Positions 18,877-39,983 of a DNA stretch of 64,000 nt are shown in pieces; position 1 is the stretch's first letter, and every line of letters begins with the position of its first letter. The stretch comes from Thiomicrorhabdus sp. Kp2 (GTDB taxonomy: Bacteria > Pseudomonadota > Gammaproteobacteria > Thiomicrospirales > Thiomicrospiraceae): contig NZ_ARWI01000001.1 of the NCBI RefSeq assembly GCF_000478585.1, positions 62,001-126,000 on the forward strand, written 5' to 3'. The position numbers were made by a program, and so were the translations under genes. Under the pieces are notes generated by a model. The model did no database searches and was not told where the DNA came from. It saw only the letters and a list, made by a program, of their open reading frames with translations.

Positions 18877-18908
18877 TAAAGCCTGGGATTTTATTCTGGG
18901 CTTTTTTA
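18877..18908 (+). terminator. Rho-independent terminator
   Basis: Arms AAAGCCTGGGA and TCTGGGCTTT around TTTAT, followed by a T-run. It separates the haem protein gene from the molybdoenzyme operon. Confidence 0.85.
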
Positions 18909-19086
18909 TTTCTCTTTTAAGACTTGGTTTGACGCCCCTTACCTAAATACCCACTCATTTACTGGGTTTATTTATACATAAATTTTATTTTCCCTTATTA
19001 ATATAAGTGATTTTTCTTGTTATTAGCCTCTGCTTATACTCTCAACTGTTAAAAAGCAATTTTAGTCAAAAACAGGGAAAAGTTTT

Positions 19087-21900
19087 ATGGCATGGTCATT
19101 TCCAAAACTCACTAGACGAACTTTTATTCAAGGCGCTGCGGCAACCACCACAGCGGGTGTTTTAGCAAGTTCTAAATTGGCTTGCGCACATCTTCCATCA
19201 TGGGACGACTTAATGTTTGCCGACAGCAAACGTAAAGAGATGAAAGAGAAGCTGGATTATACGATTTGTAATTTCTGTTCATCTTTGTGCAATATCGAGA
19301 TCCGCACTATGACCGATGGTGAAACCAGTCGCATCGTTAAGTTAGAGGGGAACCCTCACTCAACCTTAAATCGCGGTCGAGCTTGTGCTCGCGGTCAGTC
19401 GGGTTTGTTCCAAACTTATGATACAGATCGTCTAAAGACACCCATGATTCGTGTACAAGGTTCTAAGCGCGGTGAAATGGCCTTCCGTAAAGCTTCATGG
19501 GACGAAGCTTATGACTATATTGCAAAACACACTCAAAATGTAAAACCTTGGGAGTGGACTACTGTAGGTGGTTGGACAAACTGCGTGTTCTATATGAATT
19601 GGGCCGTTGCTTTCTCAATGGCAAACCAAATTCCAAATATTGTGGCTTCTCCAATGCAACACTGTGTAACAACGGGGCACTTAGGGACGGATGCGGTAAC
19701 GGGGAATTTTAATATTCACGATGAAATTCTTCCTGACTTTGATAATGCGCGTTACATCATGTATATCGCTAATAACGGCTCAATGGGAGCGGTTTCTACT
19801 GCACGTGTAGTGCGTGCGGCAGAAGGGATTCAGCGTGGCGCCAAAGTGGTTGTTCTTGACCCTCGTTTATCTGAAACCGCGGCCAAGGCCGATGAATGGG
19901 TTCGTATTCGTCCTGGTACCGATTTAGATTTCACGATGGCATTAATGAATGAAATCATGTCTAAAGACTACTACGACAAAGAGTTCTGCATTAAACATAC
20001 AAACCTACCATTCTTAATTGAAAAAGATGGCGAAGGTGAATGGCAGATTCTTCGTGATGCTCAAGGTAATTTTTCGGTTTTCGATGAGCTTTCTGGTGCG
20101 GTTCAGCAAGTTAAAGCACACGACAATGCCAATGACCTAGACATTAACGGTAAACGCGTCATTCCAACTTTAAGGCTGCCTGAGGGGTTACAACTAAATG
20201 GTCAGTCAGTGCAAACGGTTTTTGAAGCCCAGTTAGATGAAATCAAACATGTCACGCCTGAGTTTGCTTCTAAAACAACCACAATTCCTGCAGAAGATAT
20301 TATTCGTATCGCTTATGAATATTCGCACATTAAACCTGCAATCATTGATCCAGGCTGGATGGGTGCGCGTTACAACAACGTTCAGATGTTACGCCGTACT
20401 CAAGCGATGTTACAAACCCTAATTGGTGGGATTGATAGCAAAGGAGGCTGGATTAATGCGGCTGAAGTGCGTCATAAAGTTCATACCACAAATAAGGCTC
20501 GTAAAGCGGGTGTTCAACAAGCTCATCCATTGGCAACCACAGGGGGGATGCCATTTGCAGAGATGGTGGTTGATGTATTCAGTAACCCTAAAAACTTTAA
20601 TCATGGTAAGCCAGCTTGGGCTTATGCCTTTGCAGAACAGCAAAAAGCCTCTGGTAAACCATGGGTTGCTTTACCCGTAATGGCCGATACAGGCCTGTTT
20701 GAATCGGTGCGTGGTGAAGTGGAATACAAAGGGGAACAATACCTTACTAAGGCGTTCTTTATTAATGGTGCAAACCCCGTTCACCATTACTTTCCAGATT
20801 CATATTGGAAAGATATGTTAAACCACGACAACGTTGAATGTGTGGTTTGTATGGATGTTTTACCGTCTGATACCACCGCTTATGCCGACGTTATCTTACC
20901 TAATTCAACTTATTTAGAGCGTGATGAACCTGGTATTTATGGTAATGGTGTAAACCAAGATTTAGGTCTAACAACCCGTTTTAAAGCAATTGACCCAATT
21001 TACGATACCCATGAAGTCACCGATGTTATGTTTAGAATGACAGAGATCATTTCTGGAAAAGAAGGCGTTGAGGCGTATTACCAAACCATTGACAACCTAG
21101 CAGGCCTGTCAGCTTCTAAAGCAAAAAAATATGTGGCGGAAGAACAAGCTAAAGGTACGCCTGATCCGATTGCGGCAGCTTATCGTCGTGTGAGCATGGA
21201 ACATGCGGCTCACGAAGTGGGTGAAACACCCGAAAATTTTGAAAAAGTTTTGCGTGAAAAAGGCGTTTACTATATTAAAACCATGGACGAGTTGCTTGAG
21301 GAAGCAGCTATGCCACAAAAAATGCCAGTACCGACACGTTCGGGCCGCTTAGAATTTTACTCAAGTTTGTTTGAAAATATTCGCGGTAAGAGTACAACGC
21401 GCGCACCCAACTTTGGTGTGTTGGCGATGCACTTCCCATCGGGTATTTTAGGTGAAAAAGTCAATCAAGACCGTATGTTAGATGAAGGTGAGTTTTACTT
21501 TACTTATGGTAAATCACCCACGGTATCACACGGTTCTACCAATGCGAATAACCCTGTTTTAGCGGCTATTAACGTTTTTAAAGAGGACATTTACACGGGG
21601 ATTTGGATTAACCCAGCACGCGCCGATAAGCTGGGAATTAAAACGGGCGATGCCATTAAATTAACAAACCTAGAAGATGAGAGCTTGAATGTGGATGGTA
21701 AAGCCTATGTGACTAACCAAGTTCAGCCAGAGTCGGTCTTTATGTATTCATCTTTTGGTACTGAGAATGCCGCATTAAGTCGTGCCGTTAATTTCGGTAG
21801 TGCGATTAATAAAATCATTGGTTACAAAATAGACCCTGTTGTAGCTGGTTTCCGTTCGCAAGAATTCACGATCAAAGTAGAAAAAATAGCTTCAGTCTAA
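19087..21900 (+). CDS. Tat-exported Mo-bisPGD oxidoreductase, catalytic subunit (PsrA/PhsA-like)
   Basis: A DMSO-reductase-family catalytic subunit of 937 residues. The Tat signal is TRRTFIQGAAA (9-19), placing it in the periplasm. A [4Fe-4S] site is formed by Cys 61, 64, 68 and 100 (ICNFCSSLC, GRACARG). Cys 193 in SPMQHCVTTGH is the likely Mo ligand, as in polysulfide/thiosulfate reductases. The cofactor-binding C-terminal domain is complete (YGKSPTVSHGSTNANNP, VFMYSSFGTENAAL). The following genes encode the FeS and NrfD-type membrane subunits, so this is an A-B-C complex exchanging electrons with the quinone pool. A sulfur substrate is plausible, but substrate and direction are not determined. 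It is not a typical cytoplasmic SoeA, which lacks a Tat signal. Confidence 0.85.
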   Translation: MAWSFPKLTRRTFIQGAAATTTAGVLASSKLACAHLPSWDDLMFADSKRKEMKEKLDYTICNFCSSLCNIEIRTMTDGETSRIVKLEGNPHSTLNRGRACARGQSGLFQTYDTDRLKTPMIRVQGSKRGEMAFRKASWDEAYDYIAKHTQNVKPWEWTTVGGWTNCVFYMNWAVAFSMANQIPNIVASPMQHCVTTGHLGTDAVTGNFNIHDEILPDFDNARYIMYIANNGSMGAVSTARVVRAAEGIQRGAKVVVLDPRLSETAAKADEWVRIRPGTDLDFTMALMNEIMSKDYYDKEFCIKHTNLPFLIEKDGEGEWQILRDAQGNFSVFDELSGAVQQVKAHDNANDLDINGKRVIPTLRLPEGLQLNGQSVQTVFEAQLDEIKHVTPEFASKTTTIPAEDIIRIAYEYSHIKPAIIDPGWMGARYNNVQMLRRTQAMLQTLIGGIDSKGGWINAAEVRHKVHTTNKARKAGVQQAHPLATTGGMPFAEMVVDVFSNPKNFNHGKPAWAYAFAEQQKASGKPWVALPVMADTGLFESVRGEVEYKGEQYLTKAFFINGANPVHHYFPDSYWKDMLNHDNVECVVCMDVLPSDTTAYADVILPNSTYLERDEPGIYGNGVNQDLGLTTRFKAIDPIYDTHEVTDVMFRMTEIISGKEGVEAYYQTIDNLAGLSASKAKKYVAEEQAKGTPDPIAAAYRRVSMEHAAHEVGETPENFEKVLREKGVYYIKTMDELLEEAAMPQKMPVPTRSGRLEFYSSLFENIRGKSTTRAPNFGVLAMHFPSGILGEKVNQDRMLDEGEFYFTYGKSPTVSHGSTNANNPVLAAINVFKEDIYTGIWINPARADKLGIKTGDAIKLTNLEDESLNVDGKAYVTNQVQPESVFMYSSFGTENAALSRAVNFGSAINKIIGYKIDPVVAGFRSQEFTIKVEKIASV

Positions 21901-21912
21901 AGGAGATCACGG

Positions 21913-22758
21913 ATGGCTCATTATGCAATGTTAATTGACCTAAATACCTGTACTGGCTGTAACGCTTGTATGGCGGCTTGTGCGGTCGAAAACCAAACTC
22001 CGTTTTGGTCTGATAAATGGCGTACTCAGGTACATGATGTTTCAAAAGGTAAAACCGATGCCGATGCGGCACGTGTTTTCTTTCCACGTTTGTGTAACCA
22101 CTGCGATAACCCGCCTTGTGTCACGGTTTGCCCAACAGGTGCAACTTACAAAATGGATAACGGTATTGTGGATGTGGATGACGATATGTGTATGGGTTGC
22201 CAGGCCTGTACTTTAGCTTGCCCATATGATGCTCGGTATGCATTAGATTACGATGATAATACTCAGAAAAAAGTGGTATTTGGTGAAGAAACACTGAAGA
22301 AAACACGTCCAGGTGTGGATAAATGTAATTTCTGCCGTGACCGTGTTGAAGACAATCGTTTACCAGCGTGTGTTGAAACTTGTGTAGGTAATTCAAGGCA
22401 GTTTGCAGACTTAGATAACCCGAATGACCCAGTTACTCAAATTATTAATTCTGGTATTGCTGAACCTTTAATGGCGCATTTAGGCACTAAGCCGAATGTG
22501 TATTACATTCCCGTTAAAAAGCAAACGGTTCATTTTGAACGTGGCACCTTTAATGGTCAAAACTCTGAAGCGGGTCTACACCCAATGGGGGGTGAAAATG
22601 GCACAACGTTTGAGCGTAAAGCAGGTGGTGAGCCGGACCATGCAGAACACCATGCGGCTTTTGATGGATTTGATGCGAATAGCCCGTTTGCACAAAGTGC
22701 AGTGGCTAATTCTGCAGACAATGCTCAAATTACAGACTTATTAAGAGTGGAGGCGTAA
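21913..22758 (+). CDS. Four-cluster ferredoxin-type subunit of the molybdoenzyme
   Basis: The electron-transfer subunit (281 residues) has four [4Fe-4S] sites of the DmsB/PsrB type: CTGCNACMAAC (13-23), CNHCDNPPCVTVCP, CMGCQACTLACP and CNFCRDRVEDNRLPACVETC. It passes electrons between the catalytic subunit and the membrane anchor. The C-terminal tail of about 80 residues after the cluster domain (rich in Gly, Glu and His) is longer than in DmsB. It has no signal and would be co-exported with the Tat subunit. AAAGGAG lies just before the ATG, 12 nt after the upstream stop. A CAGGCCTG copy at 22201 encodes Gln-Ala inside a cluster motif. Confidence 0.92.
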   Translation: MAHYAMLIDLNTCTGCNACMAACAVENQTPFWSDKWRTQVHDVSKGKTDADAARVFFPRLCNHCDNPPCVTVCPTGATYKMDNGIVDVDDDMCMGCQACTLACPYDARYALDYDDNTQKKVVFGEETLKKTRPGVDKCNFCRDRVEDNRLPACVETCVGNSRQFADLDNPNDPVTQIINSGIAEPLMAHLGTKPNVYYIPVKKQTVHFERGTFNGQNSEAGLHPMGGENGTTFERKAGGEPDHAEHHAAFDGFDANSPFAQSAVANSADNAQITDLLRVEA

Positions 22759-22761
22759 AGT

Positions 22762-23691
22762 ATGTTCTATTTTGGTCAAGAGCAATGGAACTGGTTAGTG
22801 GCGGTTTACCTCTTTTTAGGTGGTATGGGTGCAATGGTCATGGCCATTTCAACATTAGTTCATCGTTTAAAAATGTTTGGTCAGGACAATACCTTATTAA
22901 TGATTTGGGGTAACTTAACGGGTTTTGTTATGTTGTCTGTTGGTTCGGCCATGCTGTTTTACCATCTATTAGACCATTTAGCCGTTTGGCGTGTGTTATT
23001 AGGTGTGTTTGTTAAGCCTGATGCTTGGATCGCCTGGGGTACCTGGTCAATCATCTTTGGTATGATTTGGGGTCTGATTTATACACTTCCACATATTCCA
23101 ACACCTCGTTTTTTAGGCTGGTGTCAGCTACTGAAGTTCTTTAAATGGTTTGGTAGCAAATACGCGGGTGTAATGGCTTGGGGTACTGTCTTTATGTCAG
23201 TATTTACAGCGGTTTATACGGGGATGCTACTGCAATCATTTCCAGCGGTGGAACTTTGGCATAACCCTGGTATCCCTGTACTGTTTACGGTTTCAGCGGT
23301 CTCAACAGCTTTAGCTAGCTTGTTGATTATTCAGTATGTCATTGTACGAGCCGATGACTATGAGTTACGTCATCGTTTTGAGCTAATTGATACTTGGTTA
23401 ATCGGTTCTGAAATCATTATTGTGGCTGGTTTTTTCTTTTACCTATTAAACGGTAGTTTGAATGGACAAGCCTCTCATGAGCTGCTTTGGAGCGATCCAG
23501 TCTGGACTTATGGATTTTTTGTGGCAGGTTTAATTGTGCCCTTTATCATTAACTTGGCAATGGTAACGCATAAAATTCCTACTAACGGTTTTCTAGTGTT
23601 AGTTTCTGCACTGCTTGTATTGATGGGAGGTTACATCCTTCGTCATTACATGTTACTAGCAGGTATTTGGGAATTGCCTTATCCTAAATAA
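22762..23691 (+). CDS. NrfD/PsrC-type membrane anchor subunit
   Basis: An integral membrane subunit of 309 residues with about eight or nine hydrophobic segments and the NrfD-family opening WNWLVAVYLFLGGMGA. NrfD/PsrC proteins bind quinone and complete the A-B-C complex. It starts three bases after the upstream stop, so it is clearly in the operon. A terminator follows at 23711, before the chaperone genes. Confidence 0.9.
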   Translation: MFYFGQEQWNWLVAVYLFLGGMGAMVMAISTLVHRLKMFGQDNTLLMIWGNLTGFVMLSVGSAMLFYHLLDHLAVWRVLLGVFVKPDAWIAWGTWSIIFGMIWGLIYTLPHIPTPRFLGWCQLLKFFKWFGSKYAGVMAWGTVFMSVFTAVYTGMLLQSFPAVELWHNPGIPVLFTVSAVSTALASLLIIQYVIVRADDYELRHRFELIDTWLIGSEIIIVAGFFFYLLNGSLNGQASHELLWSDPVWTYGFFVAGLIVPFIINLAMVTHKIPTNGFLVLVSALLVLMGGYILRHYMLLAGIWELPYPK

Positions 23692-23710
23692 GCCTCAAGA
23701 TTCACCTTTA

Positions 23711-23744
23711 ACAAAAGCACTCATTTAGAGTGCTTTTGTTTTAT
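23711..23744 (+). terminator. Rho-independent terminator after the A-B-C genes
   Basis: Perfect arms ACAAAAGCACTC and GAGTGCTTTTGT around ATTTA, followed by TTTTATG. It could reduce expression of the downstream chaperone genes relative to the structural subunits. Confidence 0.88.
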
Positions 23745-23863
23745 GTACTAGGTATTTTGTTAAGTTTTTTCTTTTTATCGCTAGAATATTTAACAAAATT
23801 TAATAAAGGAAAATAATAAAGCGCATTTAATAGTGAGCTTTTACTTACAAACAAGGATTGTTT

Positions 23864-24376
23864 ATGTCTGAAAAAATCCAAGAGCTAATTGTTCTCTCTG
23901 GTTTGCTTGGTGAACCCTGTGAAGAGTCTATGGAAGCAATCCAAGAGCTAGCACCTCAACTGACTTGGTTGTCTAAAGAATCGTTAAAAGAGATTGAGTC
24001 AACGCCTTTAGAAAGATGGCAAATGGAGCACACTCGCCTGTTTGTTTCTGGACACCCTAAAACGGAATGTGCGCCATTTGAATCGGTATGGACAGAAGGG
24101 CGTATGATGGGTGATACCACCCATACCATTCAAGCTTTATATAATAAAGTGCAATACCAACCAGATGCGGAACTACCAGCTGATTACCTTGGCTCTGAGC
24201 TGGCGTTTTTAGCATTTGTTTTAGAAAACTACAGTGACCAACAAGCATTTTTGGTTGAGATTTTAGAACATCTACACACTTGGGTGCCCAAGCTGGCAAA
24301 AGCGATTCGTATTCATGCAGATTTAGAGTTTTACCGAGATTATGCAAGACGTCTTGAAGCGTTATTTGAGATGTGA
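23864..24376 (+). CDS. TorD-family molybdoenzyme chaperone
   Basis: A cytoplasmic, all-helical chaperone of about 170 residues that binds Tat signal peptides of molybdoenzymes and aids cofactor insertion. The family motif EHTRLFVSGHPKTECAPFESVW is clear (about 54-75), followed by the FLAFVLENYSDQQ helix. The ATG at 23864 is preceded by AAGGA at good distance; the in-frame TTG at 23858 abuts that site. Its place after the A-B-C genes suggests that the Tat subunit at 19087 is the client. Confidence 0.87.
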   Translation: MSEKIQELIVLSGLLGEPCEESMEAIQELAPQLTWLSKESLKEIESTPLERWQMEHTRLFVSGHPKTECAPFESVWTEGRMMGDTTHTIQALYNKVQYQPDAELPADYLGSELAFLAFVLENYSDQQAFLVEILEHLHTWVPKLAKAIRIHADLEFYRDYARRLEALFEM

Positions 24377-24378
24377 TT

Positions 24379-25059
24379 ATGAAGCATAAATCGTCACACA
24401 CCTCTGAATTAGCAGAAGGTAAAGTGTTAGAAAATAGGGTTGAAAAAGTTACCAGGCCTGGTAACTCTGACTGGCAATTGATTCAAACCCAAACTTTGCA
24501 AGAAACCCATGATTTGATTGTTGATGTCTTTAAAAACACCTATCACAAAAACTTTGAAGAAGAGTGGTTGGGTGTGAATCATAATCTACAAGTTGAACTT
24601 AGAGGTTTTAAATTTGTAGATGGTTGGGTGACAGGTTTTTTATTAACGCCGTGGATGTTATGTACAATTTATATCCCCGTGTTACAACAGCCTAATTTAG
24701 AGATAGAAACTGAGTGGTTAGCTGAACGGAGGCAAAACCAAGACTATGTGGTGATTGGTTCATTAAAAACCTTTGATATTGGCGGTAGTTCACAAAAAGG
24801 TAATTTGAATTATCATCCCAAATTAGGGCACTATTTACTTCAACCTCTAGTGCAGATTATGGATAAATACGCCGACAACGAAAGCGCTTTTGGCGCTTGG
24901 TCTCAAGTAATTGCTTTTAGAAAAGCACACTATGAAAAAATAGAACAAGAAGCGTTAGCCAAAGAGGCTTCTCTTAAAGAGATTGAAGATAAATCGAAGC
25001 CGATTGATGAGAATGAAATATTGGACCGCAGAGGTTTTTTATCTAAGTGGATGACGTGA
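24379..25059 (+). CDS. HybE-family assembly chaperone
   Basis: The protein matches the family named for [NiFe]-hydrogenase assembly chaperone HybE: VNHNLQVELRGFKFVDGWVTGFLLTPWMLCTIYIP (about 73-107 of 226) and a later GSLKTFDIGG block. The C-terminal DRRGFLSKW resembles the RR-F-L tail seen in some members. No hydrogenase genes are visible here. It is two bases downstream of TorD, so it probably serves the molybdoenzyme or a distant hydrogenase. I prefer the ATG at 24379 to the overlapping GTG at 24373. A 20-nt perfect palindrome (24447-24466) centred on CAGGCCTG is read as Thr-Arg-Pro-Gly, just before the conserved domain. Confidence 0.78.
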   Translation: MKHKSSHTSELAEGKVLENRVEKVTRPGNSDWQLIQTQTLQETHDLIVDVFKNTYHKNFEEEWLGVNHNLQVELRGFKFVDGWVTGFLLTPWMLCTIYIPVLQQPNLEIETEWLAERRQNQDYVVIGSLKTFDIGGSSQKGNLNYHPKLGHYLLQPLVQIMDKYADNESAFGAWSQVIAFRKAHYEKIEQEALAKEASLKEIEDKSKPIDENEILDRRGFLSKWMT

Positions 25060-25083
25060 TTTCTTGAACGTTTTTTAACAAAG

Positions 25084-25117
25084 TAAAACGCCCTGAAAAT
25101 TGCAGTGCGTTTTTGTT
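25084..25117 (+). terminator. Terminator after the HybE-like gene
   Basis: Arms AAAACGC and GCGTTTT with an inner CTG/CAG pair, followed by a long T-rich run. Confidence 0.65.
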
Positions 25118-25164
25118 TTTGTGATGCGATTGAATTGAATGATTTGTTAAGAACTCTCTTAAAA

Positions 25165-26250
25165 TTAAATATTCCATTGAATCGTTTTGGTTGCGCTTTT
25201 TAACTGCTCTTCAGTTTGTGGAACAGCTGGAGCTTGTGCATCTTGTATATAGAGTGCTGAGGCGACTTTACGGGCAATTTCTCTAAAGCTTAATGCAATC
25301 TTGGATTCTGGCTCTGCAGCAACGGTTGGATTACCGTTGTCAGTCTCTTCTTGAATACGTTTATCTAGCGGTAAAGAACCTAAAAAATTTACCATGTACT
25401 GCAAAGACATTAGTTGAGCGCCATCGTGGCCAAAGATATGCTCTTCGTGTCCGCATTTTGGGCAAATAAACATATTCATGTTTTCAACTACCCCTAAAAC
25501 AGGAATCTCTACCTGGTGAAACATTTTTAAACCTTTTTTGGCGTCGAGAAGAGCAATTTCTTGTGGTGTGGAGACCACAACCGCACCCGAAACGGGTATT
25601 TGTTGAGCAATCGTCAATTGCACATCACCCGTACCTGGCGGCATATCAATCAATAAGTAGTCCAATTCTGGCCACTCAGTACTAAAAAGTAAGGTTTTTA
25701 GGGCTGAGTCAAGTTGAGCACCACGCCAAATCAATGGGGTGTCTTCGCGAGTAAGATGGTTGGCAATGGTGGCGATTTGTATTCCATGAGCCAAAATCGG
25801 TTTGATTATATCGCCGTTGATTTTGGGTCTGTGATGATCAATGCCAAACATCTTGGCTTGGCTAGGGCCGTAAAGGTCGGCATCTAAAACACCAACTCTA
25901 GCCCCTTCGGCTTGTAAAGCTAAAGCCAGATTTGCAGTAACCGTGGATTTACCTACACCGCCTTTTGCTGAAGAGATAGCAATAATGTTTTTAACATTTA
26001 CCAGGCCAGGTTGTTCTTTAGAAATTTTTGGCGAAGGTTTGATTTGATAGTTAAATTCAATATTTAAATTAGCACTGTTCAGTTCTTGTTGAATCGTCTT
26101 TTTAAGTGTGCGTTCATTGCCTTTTGCAGGATAAGGTAGGGTAATGGTTATGTGATTGTTTTTAAAAGAGATAGCATTCAATTCATTGAGTGTTTTACCA
26201 ACATAAGGCTCGTTAATAGATCCTAACTGGGCAAGGGTGTGATTATCCAT
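25165..26250 (-). CDS. apbC: ApbC/Mrp (NBP35-type) Fe-S cluster carrier ATPase
   Basis: A P-loop ATPase of 361 residues that carries [4Fe-4S] clusters to target proteins. An N-terminal DUF59-like (MIP18) region is followed by the deviant Walker A SAKGGVGKST (Lys 95 signature lysine, Lys 101 P-loop), switch IDMPPGTGD, and the cluster-bridging CPKC (Cys 263, 266). Length is normal. A long Gln/Pro-containing tail follows. The gene stands alone on the minus strand between the HybE-like gene and slyD. Confidence 0.92.
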   Translation of the reverse strand: MDNHTLAQLGSINEPYVGKTLNELNAISFKNNHITITLPYPAKGNERTLKKTIQQELNSANLNIEFNYQIKPSPKISKEQPGLVNVKNIIAISSAKGGVGKSTVTANLALALQAEGARVGVLDADLYGPSQAKMFGIDHHRPKINGDIIKPILAHGIQIATIANHLTREDTPLIWRGAQLDSALKTLLFSTEWPELDYLLIDMPPGTGDVQLTIAQQIPVSGAVVVSTPQEIALLDAKKGLKMFHQVEIPVLGVVENMNMFICPKCGHEEHIFGHDGAQLMSLQYMVNFLGSLPLDKRIQEETDNGNPTVAAEPESKIALSFREIARKVASALYIQDAQAPAVPQTEEQLKSATKTIQWNI

Positions 26251-26334
26251 AATCCAACTTTTTTAATCAAAATAGAAAATAATTTTACTCGGCTTAGCGT
26301 TGATTGAAAATAAAGTATTTTTAATACCCTTTAA

Positions 26335-26358
26335 TAAAAAAGCCCCTATTAAGGGGCT
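26335..26358 (-). terminator. Rho-independent terminator after slyD
   Basis: On the minus strand AGCCCCTTAATAGGGGCT is followed by TTTTTTATT. It ends slyD. Confidence 0.88.
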
Positions 26359-26384
26359 ATGAAGATTTATAAGGCTGGGTAACC

Positions 26385-26864
26385 TTAGTGGTGGTGACCA
26401 CCTTCACCATGAGCATGTCCATGCTCAATTTCTTCTTCAGTCGAGTCACGCAGTCCAACCACTTCAACGTCAAATGTTAAAGCTTCACCTGCTAGAGGAT
26501 GGTTACCATCAACAGTGACTTGTTCATCTTCAATATGAGTGATTTCAACCGAGTGCATGCCTTGCTCAGATTGCGCTTCAAAACGCATCCCAATTTCTAA
26601 TTCTTCTACACCTTGAAACATGGAGCTAGGAACCGTTTGCACCAAAGCATCAACACGTTCGCCGTAGGCTTGATCTGCTGGAATAGTCGCTTTGAACTTA
26701 TCGCCAACAGATTTACCTTCTAATTCTGCTTCTAGGCCTGGAATTAAATTGTGGTGGCCGTGCAAATAAGCTAGTGGGTTACCGTTTGAAGCGTCTAGTT
26801 CTTCACCATGCTGATTGGTCAGTGTATATTCGATTAGTGCAACTTTGTCTTTTTGAATGCTCAT
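26385..26864 (-). CDS. slyD: FKBP-type peptidyl-prolyl isomerase SlyD
   Basis: A 159-residue FKBP with an inserted-in-flap (IF) chaperone domain. The opening VALIEYTLTNQHGEELDAS, the GNPLAYLHGHHNLIPGLEAELEGKSVGDK block, and PADQAYGERV are typical of SlyD. The C-terminal tail HGHAHGEGGHHH is a short His-rich nickel-binding tail, shorter than in E. coli. SlyD assists protein folding and nickel delivery, for instance to hydrogenase. A GGACCC-type leader and weak ribosome site precede the ATG. Confidence 0.93.
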   Translation of the reverse strand: MSIQKDKVALIEYTLTNQHGEELDASNGNPLAYLHGHHNLIPGLEAELEGKSVGDKFKATIPADQAYGERVDALVQTVPSSMFQGVEELEIGMRFEAQSEQGMHSVEITHIEDEQVTVDGNHPLAGEALTFDVEVVGLRDSTEEEIEHGHAHGEGGHHH

Positions 26865-27164
26865 TGAGAGGGTCCTGATTTTTTAAACATAAATGGATTA
26901 AGCTAAATATAACGGAAGGTTAAAAGCCTAATAGAAATTTATAGTAGATTGAATGAAATACGTGTTAGCTATGATACCTTTTCAATTTGATTTGTACACT
27001 TTTTAGGGGAATTTATTGCATATAAAAGTAATCAGGTTAGGGGTTCAATATTCTGAATATTTGAGTAATACTGTCTTTTTTAATACTTGGACGGACTATT
27101 TTTTTTAAAACGGGTATTATGATGGACGTTTAGAATTCTTTATTATTTTATTGGAGCAAATTTT

Positions 27165-27587
27165 ATGTTGTGGTTAAAAACATTTCATATCTTATTTATG
27201 ATGTCTTGGATGGCGGGTATCTTCTATTTACCGCGTATTTTTGTACATTTTGTTGAGGGCAAAGAAGCGGGGCAAGATGTTGACCGTTTAGCGATTATGG
27301 CTAAAAAACTTTATAAGTTTATGACCATTATGATGATGTTAGCGATTGGAACGGGGATTTGGTTATGGTTGGCGTATTTTCCAATAGCTCAAGGTATGGG
27401 ATGGCTACACGCCAAAATTGTGTTTGTATTATTAATGCTGGCCTATCATATGTGGACCAAAAAACGCATGCAAGAGATGCAAGAAGGGCACTTAAATCAC
27501 AGCGGTGTTTATTACCGTTGGGCAAATGAAATACCTTTGGTACTAACTTTTGTTATTTTAGTTTTGGTCGTGATTAAACCTTTCTAA
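27165..27587 (+). CDS. hemJ: Protoporphyrinogen IX oxidase HemJ
   Basis: A four-TM membrane enzyme (140 residues) converting protoporphyrinogen IX to protoporphyrin IX in haem synthesis. The N-terminus LWLKTFHILFMMSWMAGIFYLPRIFV carries the conserved His 8, and WLHAKIVFVLLMLAYHMW carries the conserved Lys. Length matches the family (about 140-145). It ends at the palindromic terminator at 27609. Confidence 0.9.
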   Translation: MLWLKTFHILFMMSWMAGIFYLPRIFVHFVEGKEAGQDVDRLAIMAKKLYKFMTIMMMLAIGTGIWLWLAYFPIAQGMGWLHAKIVFVLLMLAYHMWTKKRMQEMQEGHLNHSGVYYRWANEIPLVLTFVILVLVVIKPF

Positions 27588-27608
27588 ATTACCATTTATC
27601 AGTCTATC

Positions 27609-27650
27609 AAAAGCCGTTTTACCAGGCCTGGTAAAACGGCTTTTTTGTTT
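27609..27650. terminator. 36-nt perfect palindrome terminator containing the iterated motif
   Basis: A perfect palindrome from 27609 to 27644 has outer arms AAAAGCCGTTT/AAACGGCTTTT and TACCAGGCCTGGTA (27620-27633) at its centre. It runs into TTTTTT on the plus strand and, reading the other way, has an A/T-rich flank, so it can terminate both convergent genes (hemJ and the porin). Confidence 0.88.
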
Positions 27651-27680
27651 TTGTTTTGAGAATCAATAAAGTTAAAACAG

Positions 27681-28790
27681 TTAAAACGTATAGTTTAATC
27701 GAACATTACCTGTCATTACGGTTGACTCTAATTGAATCGTTTGCGATTCGTAAACAGGGTGTTTAAACCATTGTATTGATGGTGTAATGTGCCAGTGTGC
27801 ATTGATAGGAATGTGCAGATACGTTTCAATGGTTTCAGAGGATTTTTGGGCTGTGGTTAGGTAATGTGAGAATTGAGTTGAACTATATCCAACACCTAAG
27901 TTCCAAGCATTGGTATTAAGCTGATAGGCCGCAGAAAAAAACTGTTTTGCCGATGAAACCTCTGCGTTAGCGACACCAAAACGTGTTTCAAATTGATGTT
28001 GTTTAAATTGATAACCACTCGTTAAATAACCACCATAGTTAGATAAATCATTTTCTTGCGGGTCATTTAAAGCCTCATGTTTACCATTGTGCAGCCAAGC
28101 ACCAGTATTAAAGAAGAAATTGTCTTTTTTATACTGAAACTCCATGGCACTAAATAGGCCTTTTTCATCCTCATTCACTTCAAATAAACTGGCGTAATTT
28201 CTAGAGTTATTGTCTGCAATTCCGTGAGTCGATGACACAAACAATCGAGCCGATGTAGTTTGACTGATGGCATATTCAACTGCGCCCCCCAAAACATAAT
28301 CGGGAAAATCGATTACTGAGTTATTCACCAAAGACGCACTAATAAAATTATGATTTTCATCATTCATAATTTCACTACTGTCTAAAAAAGCAGTGGCATC
28401 AACCAAACCTAAAGTGACATTTAGCTGTTTAGTAAAATTATGTCGATAATTGAGTTCAGAAATCTGTATACGGCCTTCATCACGGTTGTCTAAAGAAGAA
28501 CCTGAGTCTGAGTTGCTGTCTTGTATTAAGTTAGCGACGCCTTCTTTTATAGGGCTGTTTGACGCTTCAATATGCAACTGCCATTCACCCTTTTCAGTCG
28601 GTTTTAAAATAACCAAATCAGCCGATAAAGAGGTATTGGCCTTGAGTTTAGAGGTGTTAGCCTGCTGATGAATTAGGTTAACACTGGCCTCATAACTAAT
28701 ATCATTTGCAGCAGAAACCGCTGGTAAGCAGAGTAGGGCGGCATGCAAAATTGAGGGTTTGATAATTCGATTTTTAGTAGATTGATTCAT
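27681..28790 (-). CDS. Outer-membrane porin-like beta-barrel (OprB-type)
   Basis: A 369-residue protein with a signal peptide (cleavage near VSAAND), alternating beta-strand pattern throughout and a C-terminal phenylalanine (NVRLNYTF), the outer-membrane insertion signal. Blocks such as LNYRHNFTKQLNVTLGLVDATAFLD and GGAVEYAISQTTSARLFVSS resemble carbohydrate-selective porin relatives. The transported solute is unknown. It lies downstream of the ferric transporter genes on the same strand, 335 nt away, which leaves open a link to iron. Confidence 0.72.
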   Translation of the reverse strand: MNQSTKNRIIKPSILHAALLCLPAVSAANDISYEASVNLIHQQANTSKLKANTSLSADLVILKPTEKGEWQLHIEASNSPIKEGVANLIQDSNSDSGSSLDNRDEGRIQISELNYRHNFTKQLNVTLGLVDATAFLDSSEIMNDENHNFISASLVNNSVIDFPDYVLGGAVEYAISQTTSARLFVSSTHGIADNNSRNYASLFEVNEDEKGLFSAMEFQYKKDNFFFNTGAWLHNGKHEALNDPQENDLSNYGGYLTSGYQFKQHQFETRFGVANAEVSSAKQFFSAAYQLNTNAWNLGVGYSSTQFSHYLTTAQKSSETIETYLHIPINAHWHITPSIQWFKHPVYESQTIQLESTVMTGNVRLNYTF

Positions 28791-29125
28791 GGCTTCATTT
28801 ACTTGTAGGCAAAGTTCATTTTGAGTATTTCATTTTCTAAGCGGTAGCTAGATCAGGTCTTTATTGTTTTAAAAGTTCTGCCAACTGGATTGCTTTGTAT
28901 TGTAATAAATTAAATTACTTAAAGTCAATCTTAATAAGAATTGTTTTTATTTGCATTAATATTTAGAGGCTTGGATATAGGTTTATCAAAGAGCAGGCCT
29001 GGTAAATGGCAAAGATTTTTTATTGTTTTAAAACAAGATATTTTAATGAGTTTTGTATTGATAAAAAGGCACTAAGACTTATGTAAAGCAATATAACCTG
29101 TTGTAAATTAAGAGGTTTTCATATA
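28791..29125. other. Intergenic region upstream of the porin
   Basis: About 335 nt of AT-rich sequence between fbpC and the porin gene. It holds a motif copy at 28994-29004 (CAGGCCTGGTA). I see no RNA gene, Fur box or clear terminator. Confidence 0.5.
28994..29004. repeat. Iterated motif CAGGCCTGGTA (intergenic, one arm shortened)
   Basis: The core CAGGCCTG is intact; the left arm reads GAG where TAC is usual. Confidence 0.85.
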
Positions 29126-30196
29126 TTAAATATTTACAAATTGTTCATCTGTTTTTTGTAATTGAAAAACCACTGCGTGATCCATTTCGAGTTTTATGCC
29201 AATTTTTGAACCAACTGGATGATCGTGATGTGACTGGCTCATACACAATACTTTTTCGCCACTAGGTAATTTTAAGGTAAATAAAAAGTGAGAACCTCTA
29301 AAGGCTCGGCTAATGACTTCAAGTTGCCAGTCACTGCTATCGTCATGCAAAATATCATCTGGACGTACTAAAACCGAGACTTGTTCGCCAGTTTGAACGC
29401 CAAAAGGTAAACGGGCTTTTAATAAACCAAGTTCGGTATGTACCGCTTGGCAATCGCATACCGCACCACTAATGAGTGAGCCTTGGCCAATAAAGTCGGC
29501 AATAAAAGGGTGTTTGGGTTCGTGATAGAGTTTATAAGCAGTGTCCCACTGTAAAAGTTTACCATCCTTCATTACACCAACTGAATCGGCAATGGCAAAG
29601 GCTTCGTTTTGGTTATGGGTAACCATTAAGGCGCTAATGCCTTCGGCTTTAAGAATCTCTCTTACTTCACGGGCAAGTGATTCTCTAAGTTCAATATCAA
29701 GCCCTGAAAAGGGTTCATCCATTAATAATAAACTCGGTTTGGGTGCCAAGGCTCTGGCTAACGCAATGCGTTGTTGTTGGCCACCTGACAGCTGGTGTGG
29801 ATAGCGTTTAGCGACATCGGGTAAATCGATTAGTTCTAACAGTTGTTGAATGCGTGCCTGTTTTTCTTTATTGCTGGTGCTTTTTAAACCAAATGCAATG
29901 TTTTCATAAATGGTCATATGTGGAAACAGGGCGTAATCTTGAAAAACCATGCCTATTTGACGTTTTTCTGTAACTATATTTTGAGTAGAAGAAGATAAGC
30001 AGTTTTCTCCTAAGTGAATTTCTCCATCATTAATATTGTGTAAACCCGCTATGGCTCTTAAAAGGGTGGTTTTACCGCAACCGCTAGGCCCTAATAAACA
30101 ACCAATCTCTTTATCTTTTAAAAGTAAATCAACCCCTTTTATAACGGTTTGATTGCTATGGCTAGCTTTAACTTGAAGCAAAGTAAGTTCAGGCAT
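29126..30196 (-). CDS. fbpC: Ferric-iron ABC transporter ATPase FbpC
   Basis: A 356-residue ATPase of the FbpC/AfuC class. Walker A is GPSGCGKTT, the signature is LSGGQQQR, Walker B is LLLMDEPFSGLD, with the H-loop in MVTHNQNEA. A C-terminal OB-like regulatory region (about 240-350) is present. It energises uptake through the upstream permease, with which it overlaps by 8 nt, so the two are translationally linked. Confidence 0.92.
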   Translation of the reverse strand: MPELTLLQVKASHSNQTVIKGVDLLLKDKEIGCLLGPSGCGKTTLLRAIAGLHNINDGEIHLGENCLSSSTQNIVTEKRQIGMVFQDYALFPHMTIYENIAFGLKSTSNKEKQARIQQLLELIDLPDVAKRYPHQLSGGQQQRIALARALAPKPSLLLMDEPFSGLDIELRESLAREVREILKAEGISALMVTHNQNEAFAIADSVGVMKDGKLLQWDTAYKLYHEPKHPFIADFIGQGSLISGAVCDCQAVHTELGLLKARLPFGVQTGEQVSVLVRPDDILHDDSSDWQLEVISRAFRGSHFLFTLKLPSGEKVLCMSQSHHDHPVGSKIGIKLEMDHAVVFQLQKTDEQFVNI

Positions 30197-31817
30197 GTTG
30201 GTTTTTTTCCATAAGTTTACTTAAAAATATAACGGGTATTAAACTGGTTAAAACAATAAGCAATGCGGGTAAGCCTGCATCAGCCAAGCGTTCATCGGCA
30301 GCCATTTCGTAGGCTCTAATGGCTAAGGTGTCAAAATTAAAAGGGCGTAATATTAGGGTGGTGGGTAGTTCTTTTAAAACCTCGACAAACACCAAAATTA
30401 ATGCGGTAAGTAAACTGCTTTGCAAAAGTGGAATATGAATTTGTTTAAGCCGTTGCCAGTTTGATGCACCTAGTGTTTTCGCGGAATCGTCCATGCTGGG
30501 TTTAATTTGCTGTAATCCCGATTCTATTGATTGTAAGGCCACCGATAAAAAGCGAATAGTGTAAGCCATAACTAATGCAAATAGAGTGCCTGAAAAAATA
30601 AGGCCTGTTGATATTTGATAGTGATTATAAAAGAAATCATCAATTAATTTATCCAGGCCTGCTAGCGGAATTAGGATGGCAATGGCTAAAACGGTGCCTG
30701 GAATGGCGTAACCAAAGTGTGATAATTGTACGCTTTGTTTAATCCATTTTGAGGGTGATAACCGTTTTGAGTAAGCAAGCAATAAGGCGATAACCAGTGT
30801 CACCAGGGCAGTAATCAATGCTAAAGACAGACTGTTGAATATTAGGTTAAAAAAGTCACTATTAAGATTACTTTCCGCGGTGGTCATTGACCAATACAAC
30901 AGTTGTAAAGAGGGAATTAAAAAACCAATTAAGATTGGAAAAAAACAAATAGCAAACGCCATGTTAGCTTTACGGCTTGGCAACTTAACTAAAGTGTGTG
31001 TTTGTGAATGGTTGTCACTTGTAAAATAGCGTTGTTGTTTTCTTGACCAGCGTTCTATGGCAATAAGTGTTGCAACAAAAATCAAGAGTATTAAAGAGAG
31101 TTGAGCTGCAGTTGTGGTGTCACCCAAGCCAGACCAAGTTCGGTAAATGCCGGTGGTAAAGGTATCTACCCCAAAGTGTTGAACGGCGCCAAAATCGGCT
31201 AATGTTTCCATGAGTGCTAAGGTAACGCCCGCAATAATAGCAGGCCTGGCCATGGGTATGGCAATTAACCAAAAGCTTTTAAATGGCGATACGCCCAAAG
31301 TTTTACTGACGTCTAAGGCTTGTTGACTTTGTGAGCCAAAGGCACTACGACTTAACAGGTAAACATAGGGGTACAAAACAAAAGAAAATAGCAAAATAGC
31401 ACCGCCCAGTGAGCGAATTTCTGGAAACCAGCTTGAAACGTTTGGGTTAACTATTTCACGTAATAGGCTTTGCACAGGCCCTTCAAACTCTAAAACCCCG
31501 GTGTAGGTATAAGCGGTAATGTAGGCGGGCATAGCCAAAGGCAATAACAGTGCCCACTGCAACCATTTACGCCCCCAAAACTCATAATGACTGATTAGCC
31601 AAGCGGTTGGTACACCTAATAGTAGCGTACCCACACTCACCCCGAGCATTAAAAGAATTGAGTTGAGTATATAGTCTGGTAACAATGTGTTAATGAGATG
31701 TTGCCAGTTTTCATTGCCAGGTTCAAAAAGGAAAGTGACCAACACCCAAATAGGTGTGGTCATTAATAAGGCAATAACAAATGAAGATAGCAACCAAATG
31801 CGTGGGGTGTTTTTCAT
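30189..31817 (-). CDS. fbpB: Ferric-iron ABC transporter permease FbpB
   Basis: A double-length permease of 542 residues with about 12 membrane segments and two binding-protein-dependent transport domains. Each half has an EAA-type loop (VSKTLGVSPFKSFWLIAIPMARPAI and SAKTLGASNWQRLKQIHIPLLQSSL). This is the fused FbpB arrangement. It forms the membrane pore for the iron-binding protein FbpA encoded just upstream. Two CAGGCCTG motifs (30654 and 31241) lie in the gene in different frames (Ala-Gly-Leu and Arg-Pro-Ala). Confidence 0.92.
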   Translation of the reverse strand: MKNTPRIWLLSSFVIALLMTTPIWVLVTFLFEPGNENWQHLINTLLPDYILNSILLMLGVSVGTLLLGVPTAWLISHYEFWGRKWLQWALLLPLAMPAYITAYTYTGVLEFEGPVQSLLREIVNPNVSSWFPEIRSLGGAILLFSFVLYPYVYLLSRSAFGSQSQQALDVSKTLGVSPFKSFWLIAIPMARPAIIAGVTLALMETLADFGAVQHFGVDTFTTGIYRTWSGLGDTTTAAQLSLILLIFVATLIAIERWSRKQQRYFTSDNHSQTHTLVKLPSRKANMAFAICFFPILIGFLIPSLQLLYWSMTTAESNLNSDFFNLIFNSLSLALITALVTLVIALLLAYSKRLSPSKWIKQSVQLSHFGYAIPGTVLAIAILIPLAGLDKLIDDFFYNHYQISTGLIFSGTLFALVMAYTIRFLSVALQSIESGLQQIKPSMDDSAKTLGASNWQRLKQIHIPLLQSSLLTALILVFVEVLKELPTTLILRPFNFDTLAIRAYEMAADERLADAGLPALLIVLTSLIPVIFLSKLMEKNQHA

Positions 31818-31886
31818 GTATCGGTTTTGTAAATTCCTAACTTTATTTTTAGGCGATAATTTATGATGCTAACAGGTAATTAGCTA

Positions 31887-32927
31887 TTATCGCCAGTTGG
31901 CTCTATCCATTAAACGAACCGCTTTTGGATTATTAATACCAAGTTGCGACATATTTAAACTATCGCTTTTAAATTTTCCCCAAGACTTTAATGTATCGCT
32001 GGCTTCAACATTAGCCACTACAGGGTATTCATTATTACTTTGTGCATACCAATCCTGAGCTGGTTTAGTGAGTAAAAAAGTAATGAGTTTATTGGCATTA
32101 TCCACATTTTTAGCGGAGTTAGTAATGGCAATACCGCTTACATTAATATGGGTACCTCTATCGTTTTGATTTGGCCAAAATACAGCGACTTGTTGTGCCG
32201 CTTTTACTTGTTCAGGGTCGTTACCATTAAGCATTTGTCCGAGGTAGTAAGTATTCACAATGGCAATATCGCAATTACCTGCTGCCACCGCTTTAACTTG
32301 ATCACGATCTCCGCCTTTGGGTTTACGGGCAAAATTTTCTACAAACTGATTTGCCCATTGTTGAGTTTTTTGTTCGCCAATGTTGGTTATCATTGATGCA
32401 ACTAAAGATTGATTGTAAATATTATCTGAAGAGCGAATACAGATACGGTTTTTCCATTTAGGCTCGGCTAGCGCTTCATAGGTAGAAAGCTCGGATGGAT
32501 TTACTTTGTCTTTTTTATAAACAATCACACGCGCTCTTGTGGTGAGACCAAGCCATTGGTTATCTATATCTTTTAGATTGGCAGGCACTTTATTTAAGGC
32601 GTCCTCAGAAATAGCGGCTTGCAATAAGCCAAGCTCTTTCGCGCGGTGTAGGCGACCTGCGTCAGTAGTAATAAAAATATCCGCTGGAGAACGACGACCT
32701 TCAGACTCAAGTTTTTTGACTAAAGCATCCGCTTTACTGGTTATTAGGTTAACTTTTATTCCTGTCTCACGGGTGAATGCATCCAATAAAGGTTTAATCA
32801 GTTGAGTTTTACGGGCAGAGTAAACGTTCACTTCTTCTGCATTAGCAGAGGTTGAGTACCCAACTGGAAAAACCATTGCACTACTTAAGATTAAGCTTGA
32901 TAACAGTTTTGTGTTGAATAATTTCAT
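31887..32927 (-). CDS. fbpA: Periplasmic ferric-iron-binding protein FbpA/FutA
   Basis: The solute receptor (346 residues) has a signal peptide cleaved near TSANAEE. The mature protein begins VNVYSARK and carries the FutA/FbpA iron-site blocks: RSPADIFITTDAGRLHRA, and the paired tyrosines in IAIVNTYYLGQML. It delivers Fe(III) to FbpB/FbpC, encoded downstream in the same orientation. AGGAAATG precedes the ATG. A Fur-box-like sequence lies 108 nt upstream, in the spacer shared with a Cys-rich small gene, so iron repression is likely. Confidence 0.93.
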   Translation of the reverse strand: MKLFNTKLLSSLILSSAMVFPVGYSTSANAEEVNVYSARKTQLIKPLLDAFTRETGIKVNLITSKADALVKKLESEGRRSPADIFITTDAGRLHRAKELGLLQAAISEDALNKVPANLKDIDNQWLGLTTRARVIVYKKDKVNPSELSTYEALAEPKWKNRICIRSSDNIYNQSLVASMITNIGEQKTQQWANQFVENFARKPKGGDRDQVKAVAAGNCDIAIVNTYYLGQMLNGNDPEQVKAAQQVAVFWPNQNDRGTHINVSGIAITNSAKNVDNANKLITFLLTKPAQDWYAQSNNEYPVVANVEASDTLKSWGKFKSDSLNMSQLGINNPKAVRLMDRANWR

Positions 32928-33000
32928 AGCGTCATTTCCTAAAATAATAGCTAAAGGACTATTGTTATGTCTAATAGCCTTAACCGTTGTTTAAATAATA

Positions 33001-33028
33001 TTTACATCAAAGTCTAATCGTTTATAAT
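33001..33028 (+). promoter_or_regulatory. Sigma-70-type promoter for the Cys-rich small gene
   Basis: TTTACA (33001-33006) and TATAAT (33023-33028) are spaced by 16 nt. The predicted start near 33035 falls on the Fur-box-like site. Confidence 0.6.
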
Positions 33029-33034
33029 CTAAAT

Positions 33035-33053
33035 GTAAATGATAATGGTTAAT
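33035..33053. promoter_or_regulatory. Fur-box-like operator
   Basis: The 19-mer GTAAATGATAATGGTTAAT matches the classical Fur consensus at 13 of 19 positions, including an unbroken AATGATAAT. It sits between divergent fbpA and the Cys-rich gene, overlapping the predicted plus-strand start site. Confidence 0.65.
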
Positions 33054-33100
33054 ATTTACAGTGAAATAAATTATTGGGGTATTAAGGCGTAGGAGACATT

Positions 33101-33352
33101 ATGAAAGTAGAGTTGAGTTTAGCTGTTATGGCTAAGTTGTTTAATCAAGGGGTGTTAACACCAAGTCAAGTCAATTGTTTAGATGAAGCAAGCAAGGCTG
33201 ACTTAAAAAAACTTTGTCTTGATCTATGTAAGCCTGAGCATTGTGCTCAATGTGATGCTAGAGAGTATTGCTTAAAAAGCTGTCAAACACATACTGACCC
33301 AGTAACGATTAGCCAGTTAAAATCAAAAAAAATAGCGTTTCAGCTTAATTAA
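33101..33352 (+). CDS. Small Cys-rich protein, iron-linked by context
   Basis: An 83-residue protein I do not recognise. The middle holds six clustered cysteines (CLDLCKPEHCAQCDAREYCLKSC spans about 38-60, seven Cys in all with the end of the cluster), which could bind an Fe-S cluster or zinc. No signal peptide or membrane segment is visible. GGAG sits 7 nt before the ATG. It is divergent from fbpA across a Fur-box-like operator, so it is probably iron-regulated. It could be an iron-responsive accessory protein; this is inference only. Confidence 0.65.
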   Translation: MKVELSLAVMAKLFNQGVLTPSQVNCLDEASKADLKKLCLDLCKPEHCAQCDAREYCLKSCQTHTDPVTISQLKSKKIAFQLN

Positions 33353-33492
33353 GTTGGTATTCATTATTTAATAGGACGAATAAACTTTAAAAATGTAACG
33401 CTTACTTAGTACGCGTTTTAATAGCAATAACGTTAAGAATAATGTACTTGTTTACGTTAAAATAATGCGCATTCATTTTTGGAGTTATATAC

Positions 33493-34866
33493 ATGTCTAA
33501 GTCACAACCAACCGTTGGTGTTATTAGTTTAGGTTGCCCTAAAGCAACCGTTGATAGCGAACGCATATTAACTCAGCTTCGTACTGAAGGTTATCAGCTC
33601 ACTAATAGTTATCAAGATGCCGATACGGTGATTGTAAATACTTGCGGTTTTATAGACAGTGCTGTGCAAGAATCTCTAGACACAATAGGCGAAGCCTTAC
33701 AAGAGAACGGCAAGGTGATTGTAACTGGCTGTTTAGGGGCTAGAGCGGAAGAAATTACTCAAGTACATCCTAAAGTTTTGGCGGTTTCAGGCCCAGCGGC
33801 TTATGAAGAGGTGTTGTCTGCCGTGCATGAGGTTATTGCACCGCCAGCACATAACCCGTTTGTAGATTTAGTGCCTGCTCAAGGTATTAAATTAACTCCC
33901 AAACATTTTGCGTATTTAAAAATATCTGAAGGCTGTAATCACCGTTGTACATTCTGCATTATTCCGTCAATGCGTGGTGATTTAGTAAGTCGCCCAGTGG
34001 CCGATGTGATTAATGAAGCCAAACGATTAAAAGAAGCGGGCGTTAAAGAACTATTAGTGGTTTCTCAAGACACAGCCGCTTATGGGGTTGATGTTAAATA
34101 CAAAACAGAGTTTGCCGAAGGTCGCCCAACTAAAACCTCAATGGTTGGTTTATCAGAAGCCTTGGGTGAGTTAGGTGGTGTAGATAATTTTTGGGTTCGT
34201 TTGCACTATGTTTACCCCTATCCAAATGTTGAAGAGGTGATTCCGCTGATGGCAGAAGGTAAGATTTTGCCTTATTTAGATATGCCATTACAGCACGCTA
34301 ATCCACGTGTATTAAAAGCGATGAAACGTCCTGGTACCGTTGAGAAAACACTCGAACGTATTAAAAGATGGCGTGAAGCCGTACCTGATTTAACGATTCG
34401 TTCTACCTTTATTGTTGGTTTCCCTGGTGAAACAGAAGAGGAGTTTCAGGACTTATTAAGCTTTTTAGAAGAAGCGCAGCTTGATCGAGTAGGGTGTTTT
34501 CAATATTCGCCTGTAACGGGGGCGGTGGCTAATGAGATTGCTGAACAAGTACCTGATGAGATTAAGCAAGAGCGTTATGACCGTTTTATGCAGTTGCAAC
34601 AGCGTATCAGTGCAGAAAAAATGCAAGCTAAAGTTGGCAAGGTCATGAAGGTCTTGGTGGATGAAATAGATGATAAAGGGGCGGTAGCTCGTTCTATGGC
34701 CGATGCGCCAGAAATTGATGGTATGGTCTTTATCGATGACGCTTTTCATCTTGTGCCTGGTCAGTTTGTTACGGTAGAAATTATCGGTGCTGATGAATAT
34801 GATTTATGGGCAAAGCCTATTGATGAGTTTGTCACGCAAGAGAGTTCATATATTGAGCTTGGATAA
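33493..34866 (+). CDS. rimO: Ribosomal protein S12 methylthiotransferase RimO
   Basis: A radical-SAM methylthiotransferase (457 residues) that modifies Asp 88 of ribosomal protein S12. The N-terminal UPF0004 domain has cluster cysteines Cys 15, 51 and 80. The radical-SAM motif CNHRCTFC gives Cys 148, 152 and 155. A C-terminal TRAM domain is present (about 375-440). Opening [16 protein letters not shown] is characteristic of RimO rather than MiaB. The start has GGAG 7-9 nt upstream. Confidence 0.95.
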
Positions 34867-34902
34867 TAAGCAAAATTAATTTAGTTTAGGTTTATCTTGA
34901 AT

Positions 34903-34946
34903 AAAACGCCTTAGAGTTTTAAGTCAAACTCTAAGGCGTTTTATTT
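34903..34946. terminator. Bidirectional terminator, rimO / GGDEF-EAL
   Basis: A long inverted repeat with arms AAAACGCCTTAGAGTTT and AAACTCTAAGGCGTTTT, flanked by A/T-rich tracts, between convergent genes. Confidence 0.92.
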
Positions 34947-34966
34947 TTGCTGTTTTCAATAGAAGA

Positions 34967-39974: not shown

Positions 39975-39983
39975 GGTTTTAAA

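Follow-up and report, generated by a model that had tools for sequence, protein, structure and literature searches.

An iterated palindrome of Thiomicrorhabdus sp. Kp2, probably reused by a minority of its copies as the apex of predicted transcription terminators

Between two convergent genes of Thiomicrorhabdus sp. Kp2 lies a perfect 36-nt palindrome with CAGGCCTG at its centre, an 8-mer that is iterated throughout the genome. The locus raises the question of whether such a motif exists to end transcription or is kept for another purpose and put to use at gene ends. The window considered here is the whole 64,000-nucleotide stretch that was analyzed; its features are collected in Table 1. An initial annotation had proposed that the iterated motif forms the apex of transcription terminators. 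The explanation that we favor, at a probability of about 0.73, is that the motif is kept for a reason other than termination and is reused at gene ends as a terminator apex.

Table 1. Positions of the features discussed, numbered from the first letter of the window
Feature	Position	Strand	Remarks
Palindrome/RNA hairpin	27609..27644	.	16 pairs, GGCC loop; predicted bidirectional terminator in a convergent gap
CAGGCCTG core copy	27623..27630	.	Apex of the 27609-27644 hairpin
T-rich tail TTTTTTGTTTTTGTTTT	27641..27657	+	For plus-strand transcripts; first four T shared with the palindrome
Gene upstream of the hairpin	27165..27587	+	UPF0093 family
Gene convergent to 27165-27587	27681..28790	-	OprB-family porin match
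Perfect 24-nt palindrome	6167..6190	.	CAGGCCTG centre (6175-6182), 10-pair hairpin, weak T-tail TTGCTTTT, convergent genes
20-nt palindrome	24447..24466	.	Inside HybE gene; CTTTTT adjoins on the antisense strand only
Terminator 3' of dapD-like gene	63032..63057	+	AGGCCT in both arms, no CAGGCCTG
CAGGCCTG copy	63544..63551	.	Convergent gap; long interrupted hairpin, no T-tract; core kept in 3/3 alignable relatives
CAGGCCTG copy	53912..53919	.	Convergent gap; weak hairpin; core kept in 1/2 alignable relatives
CAGGCCTG copies 1-18 of 35 (8-mer starts)	1960, 3965, 4112, 4552, 6175, 10262, 10487, 12441, 12749, 16529, 16718, 20690, 21101, 22201, 24453, 27623, 28994, 30654		
CAGGCCTG copies 19-35 of 35 (8-mer starts)	31241, 38098, 41618, 45414, 45483, 47275, 49876, 52365, 53203, 53912, 54330, 56136, 58456, 58720, 60059, 63544, 63748		
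All 35 CAGGCCTG copies together	1960..63755	.	

The genome (one contig of 2,725,706 bases, or 2.73 Mb) holds 1133 copies of CAGGCCTG and 718 of the 10-mer CCAGGCCTGG, while the reversed controls are absent; the 35 copies of CAGGCCTG in the window compare with 1.1 expected under a third-order model. A sample of 464 kb (17% of the genome) was formed from the window and 20 stretches of 20 kb, and a simple codon-usage script called 418 genes in it (86% coding). This sample contains 195 copies of CAGGCCTG against 7.7 expected and 125 of CCAGGCCTGG against 0.46. Genes hold 122 of the 195 copies (63%); the other 73 are intergenic, one of them at the end of a stretch, so that 72 could be classed. The palindromes are therefore real and beyond what chance would produce, and copies show no regular spacing, their distances being near random (CV 0.87).

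Around a nearly invariant 8-bp core, the symmetrised half-site (CC TG G T A R N T T) gives the looser palindrome AANYTACCAGGCCTGGTARNTT. Single-base variants of the inner eight occur 0 to 4 times each (0.02 to 1.3 expected), while the outermost base of the 10-mer frequently changes to A (21 copies) or G (37 copies) and hardly ever to T (1 copy). The motif spans about 22 bp, with no preference in the logo beyond about 22 to 24 bp. Because the scores of the left and right halves are positively correlated (r 0.30), we regard the motif as symmetric and rule out a directional motif masked by symmetrising. The core is also conserved within genes. For the window's 35 copies in all, aligned at 73 to 77% identity over the aligned parts, genic cores were kept at 14/24, 8/19, 12/23, and 10/23 alignable sites in four congeners (G024, with too little aligned, was left out), whereas these alignments keep 6 to 8% of the other 8-mers that contain six G+C and 10 to 14% of the other palindromic 8-mers.

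As for the reading of the genic copies, phase 1 accounts for 74 of the 122 in the 464-kb sample, and the commonest encoded peptides are P/A-G-L-V and Q-A-W-L/S.

Relative to genes, the motif is strongly concentrated at 3' ends. Convergent gaps carry 3.61 copies per kb (24 of 54 such gaps have the motif), tandem gaps 0.99, divergent gaps 0.50, and genes 0.31. Within 200 nt of the nearest gene end, density reaches 2.0 to 2.5 per kb if that end is a stop, compared with 0.35 to 0.54 if it is a start; from 200 to 400 nt the relation is inverted, although few copies (1 and 5) lie there. Within tandem gaps, 28 of 37 copies lie in the half adjoining the upstream stop. A strong T-tract is missing from most of the 72 classed intergenic copies: at least 6 T in the 8 positions beside the palindrome were found for 7/26 convergent, 3/37 tandem, and 3/9 divergent copies. 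Part of the 3'-end enrichment may reflect tolerance of the motif in the spacers behind genes.

The locus that prompted the question has every property ascribed to it, namely, a perfect 36-nt palindrome on the motif, a T-tract, and convergent genes. It begins with AAAA and its end runs into TTTTTTGTTTTTGTTTT, which would make it usable on both strands. Folded alone, the two strands give -22.7 and -23.2 kcal/mol, values that none of 200 shuffles reached for either strand (z -6.8 and -6.5), and a pattern scanner also lists the site, so that a stable hairpin with a T-tract stands at a gene end in full. The upstream gene belongs to a family that, from its naming, we take to be HemJ-like.

Orthologous loci indicate that this structure has been retained while its stem changed. 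The locus was found in 13 of the 15 high-copy genomes of the genus, our own included. A motif-centred hairpin follows the stop codon within about 75 nt in six of the 13 (G000, the genome studied here, and G022, G009, G015, G028, and G019) and is absent in the other seven; at the orthologous locus of 15 low-copy congeners (G024 included), no motif copy was found within 170 nt. All six hairpin rows, five of them distinct, share ACCAGGCCTGGT, and 8 of 12 stem pairs are changed on both sides around this constant apex. Paired cells make up 91.7% of the alignment, a value reached by none of 500 shuffles and compared with 22 to 58% for slid versions; the weakest row is that of G019, with a perfect arm of 6. 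Compensating changes across five distinct orthologues thus point to a conserved structure, in a comparison that covers one locus and few sequences. In one genome, the hemJ-like gene (G007:C52) has two in-frame TAG codons inside the match and is possibly a pseudogene or an assembly error.

The other sites named in the initial annotation fared less evenly. The perfect, motif-centred palindrome at 6167-6190 does lie between convergent genes, folds at -15.5 (1/200 shuffles equal or better) and -16.0 kcal/mol (0/200) on its two strands, and is listed by the pattern scanner, but the T-tract into which it was said to run is weak. The palindrome inside the HybE gene had been described as free of a T-run, which is true of the sense strand, but the antisense strand leads into CTTTTT. 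A terminator behind the dapD-like gene had been cited for carrying AGGCCT in both arms (AAGGCCTG/CAGGCCTT); the arms are as described, but the hairpin contains no copy of CAGGCCTG, and we rejected it as a case of the motif. In the 464-kb sample, 84 occurrences of AGGCCT fall outside the motif, against about 80 expected (88.1 for all AGGCCT minus 7.7 for the full motif), close enough to expectation that the dapD site lends little support; it is probably an ordinary terminator. AGGCCT without the full motif is present in 4 of 71 predicted 3'-end terminators, and AAGGCCTG (27 against 17.5 expected) and TAGGCCTG (23 against 11.5) are mildly above expectation.

How often the motif is used in this way was gauged with a terminator scanner of our own (hairpin plus T-tail) that has arbitrary cutoffs and that, at a stricter cut, made 73 calls in real gaps versus 3, 1, and 1 in three shuffles. 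The sample yielded 71 unique predicted 3'-end terminators, 13 of which contain the motif, always on the hairpin axis (13/13) and in 8 cases called on both strands; stricter cuts gave 11/57, 10/45, and 7/31. In the congener G015 (280 kb), 7 of 44 predicted terminators contain the motif, 6 on the axis. In G024 (340 kb), where a different palindrome, CCGGCCGG, is iterated, the corresponding figure is 3 of 43, with 1 on the axis. The converse proportion is small, as only 13 of the 195 sampled copies lie inside a predicted 3'-end terminator.

Since the palindrome forms a hairpin unaided, the right flanks of intergenic copies were permuted among them as a control. On this basis, 16 of the 72 intergenic copies are terminator-like on the axis against 5.8 after permutation (sd 2.0; highest 13 in 200 permutations, none reaching 16), although the permutation mixes gap classes, and part of the excess may come from class composition. 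Among genic copies, 2/122 are terminator-like versus 0.8 after permutation. Arm pairing beyond the motif is also in excess. At position 9, which the motif leaves free, the two arms pair in 16/26 convergent copies (7.3 expected; p 0.0006); tandem copies show a surplus that is only suggestive (15/37 versus 10.1; p 0.054), and genic copies show none (36/122 versus 33.5). Across positions 12 to 18, pairing in all convergent copies is not significant (63/182 against 54.8; p 0.12), and the slight excess is gone once the two longest palindromes are removed.

We also considered whether motif hairpins replace other terminators. Convergent gaps holding another terminator numbered 9/24 with the motif versus 17/26 without it in our genome (p 0.09) and 2/11 versus 13/20 in G015 (p 0.02); no such shortage appeared in G024 (1/6 versus 14/31; p 0.37) or in tandem gaps with the motif. 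The expected exclusion is only a weak tendency, and we do not rely on it.

The claim that the motif forms the apex of terminators thus holds in part. Gene 3' ends and the axes of predicted terminators are enriched in it, and one locus shows stem compensation, but this is a minority use, given that 122 of 195 copies are genic and 13 lie in predicted terminators. Terminators are thus probably a secondary use, by a minority of copies, of a mostly genic and conserved motif. We propose that CAGGCCTG, the strict core of a two-fold symmetric iterated motif, is kept genome-wide, mostly in genes, for a reason other than termination. Each full copy already constitutes a small hairpin seed (ACCA-GGCC-TGGT), so that a copy past a stop codon would need just matching outer arms and a T-tract. 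Selection may add these to copies at gene ends, and roughly one predicted 3'-end terminator in every five or six would be made this way, often for both strands between convergent genes. Motif hairpins probably end transcription in the cell, judging from their sequence, and the motif most likely came first, with termination as its later use. Ordinary intrinsic terminators share the G+C-containing stem, short loop, and T-tract of the motif hairpins; unlike those, the hairpin at the 27609 locus keeps one apex sequence in all species compared, whereas its stem varies.

Beyond the genome itself, CAGGCCTG is distributed bimodally among 48 genomes of the family: 24 hold 236 to 1173 copies and 24 hold 3 to 74. 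One of the low-copy congeners, G024, has 12 copies of CAGGCCTG and 1217 of CCGGCCGG (reversed control, 22); its consensus is ACCGGCCGGT, and its logo, ACCGGCCGGTAAA..TTT, has T-rich flanks like those of the CAGGCCTG motif. The sequences suggest a dialect switch of the iterated palindrome within one genus, from ACCAGGCCTGGT to ACCGGCCGGT. Motif flanks are looser in G005, G026, G035, and G042 (40 kb sampled from each). In the other 23 low-copy genomes, neither CAGGCCTG nor CCGGCCGG reaches high copy number; the maximum for CCGGCCGG is 159 (control, 148), and the largest ratio to control among counts above 20 is 55 versus 12, in G013. The nine most frequent 8-mers or 10-mers of G003, G020, and G025 (60 kb each) include no palindrome, and for the remaining 20 low-copy genomes the search covered CAGGCCTG and CCGGCCGG only. 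G020 and G025 have non-palindromic repeats, 10-mers such as TTTATAAGAG and GACTCGGATT, at 11 to 16 copies per 60 kb.

If termination is a later use, the primary role has to be sought elsewhere. A primary role as terminator or 3'-end RNA element, for which the motif would have spread, could account for the 3'-end enrichment and the covariation, but it is highly unlikely in view of the genic copies and their conservation, the low share of copies in predicted 3'-end terminators, and a relative, G024, whose own palindrome is not so used. Scarcely credible is a mobile small repeat (REP- or MITE-like) or a product of chance composition: the many palindromic intergenic copies would suit a repeat, but preference ends at about 22 to 24 bp, 63% of copies are genic, the reversed control is 0, and spacing is near random. 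Viral carriage was likewise set aside; TACCAGGCCTGGTA was found in 36 viral-contig stretches, at one place in each (a count over the stretches). A binding site for an abundant dimeric DNA-binding protein, such as a nucleoid organiser or a segregation or repair factor, would explain the two-fold symmetry over about 22 bp, the correlated halves, and the strict centre; the putative protein would have to differ among species in step with the motif, and we think this possible but rather unlikely. An origin in an orphan DNA methyltransferase that makes or keeps a highly iterated palindrome (HIP), as proposed for the cyanobacterial HIP1, fits the G+C-rich palindrome with its strict inner core, loose outer bases, and a different palindrome in a relative, as well as the HIP-like density of 1133 mostly genic copies in 2.73 Mb, and the genome does match PF00145, PF01555, and PF02086 (a match that does not give specificity). 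The three families searched are, however, not associated with the motif, occurring in 9/24 high-copy versus 10/24 low-copy genomes (PF00145), 9/24 versus 9/24 (PF01555), and 5/24 versus 2/24 (PF02086), and 9 of the 24 high-copy genomes, including the single-contig G015, G022, G033, and G043, lack all three; in view of these three families we set this model aside as improbable. The sections of Elhai 2015 (PMC4390886) drawn on here describe the same combination for HIP1, with a proposed methyltransferase role, a strict core, and alternate HIPs in some relatives. Unlike HIP1, the present motif has no link to the methyltransferase families searched and combines strong 3'-end enrichment with a limited use in terminators; neither "terminator" nor AGGCCT appears in the main text of PMC4390886.

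By analogy, our leading guess for the primary function is self-recognition or DNA uptake: the motif may be a palindromic uptake sequence with species dialects, its terminators a by-product, a real possibility that we nevertheless place somewhat below even odds. Consistent with it are the roughly 1000 copies with a strict core and looser flanks, a copy number far above expectation and differing between species, the bimodal spread, the different palindrome of one congener (1217 versus 22), the looser flanks in four genomes, and the scarcity of copies in two stretches with metal-resistance (1 copy) and surface-sugar (3 copies) clusters (mean, 8). ComEC is found in 23 of 24 high-copy genomes and DprA in every one of the 30 family genomes tested, but ComEC is also present in 20 of 24 low-copy genomes and DprA likewise in low-copy ones; being nearly universal, these competence markers do not track the motif and are uninformative. 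To our knowledge, no known uptake sequence is palindromic, a directional motif being typical, whereas the motif here is symmetric with positively correlated halves. The DUS of Neisseriaceae, for instance, are directional and reportedly have a demonstrated effect on transformation. The initial annotation inferred a shared logic from the frequency of uptake sequences in terminators; we regard this as a plausible analogy, with DNA uptake a putative function here. In the parts of Kingsford 2007 (PMC1852404) used for this comparison, exact uptake sequences occupy 54 to 55% of terminators in Neisseria and 16 to 29% in Pasteurellaceae (the 16% referring to a conjectured motif). Our 13/71, and 7/44 in G015, are near the latter range, so that the genome resembles Pasteurellaceae and stands far below Neisseria. 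The same parts of that source give about 900 to 2000 copies of those signals (about 1100 here), with enrichment in tail-to-tail gaps, a sizeable terminator share, and most copies elsewhere, and argue likewise that the motif came first and terminator use later. As described there, a directional motif builds the hairpin from two copies in opposite orientation, whereas in the present genome a single palindromic copy provides the apex. Variation of the motif between related species recalls the DUS dialects of Neisseriaceae, as far as the portion of Frye 2013 (PMC3630211) considered here goes.

The reuse of directional uptake sequences in terminators, where two copies pair, is already known; here a single palindromic copy serves as seed, and the stem coevolves around a fixed apex at the one locus compared. 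The motif itself, at about 1000 copies, in half of the family genomes, and with another palindrome in one congener, is the larger matter and more interesting than its role in terminators, and identifying its reader would bear on the purpose of highly iterated palindromes. Tentatively, it might be a palindromic genome label independent of methyltransferases, read by a symmetric receptor (possibly for uptake of self-DNA), switched from ACCAGGCCTGGT to ACCGGCCGGT, and serving in single copy as a bidirectional-terminator apex. A literature search by the motif sequences, by the genera, and for palindromes with uptake met no description of the motif among the papers listed, a weak negative.

Some further observations concern the surroundings of the motif. 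Of the twenty 20-kb stretches, the poorest (G000:C1:1760001-1780000; 1 copy) holds a copper/heavy-metal resistance cluster (from a scan of 10 of its 16 called genes), and the next (G000:C1:920001-940000; 3 copies) a surface-sugar cluster that includes a ParE-type toxin gene (from a scan of 10 of its 18 called genes). For these two stretches, the scarcity is suggestive of recently acquired DNA in a genome with a vertically kept motif. The window also contains a c-di-GMP-I riboswitch at 51325-51401 on the minus strand (58.2 bits), upstream of the gene at 50510-51268.
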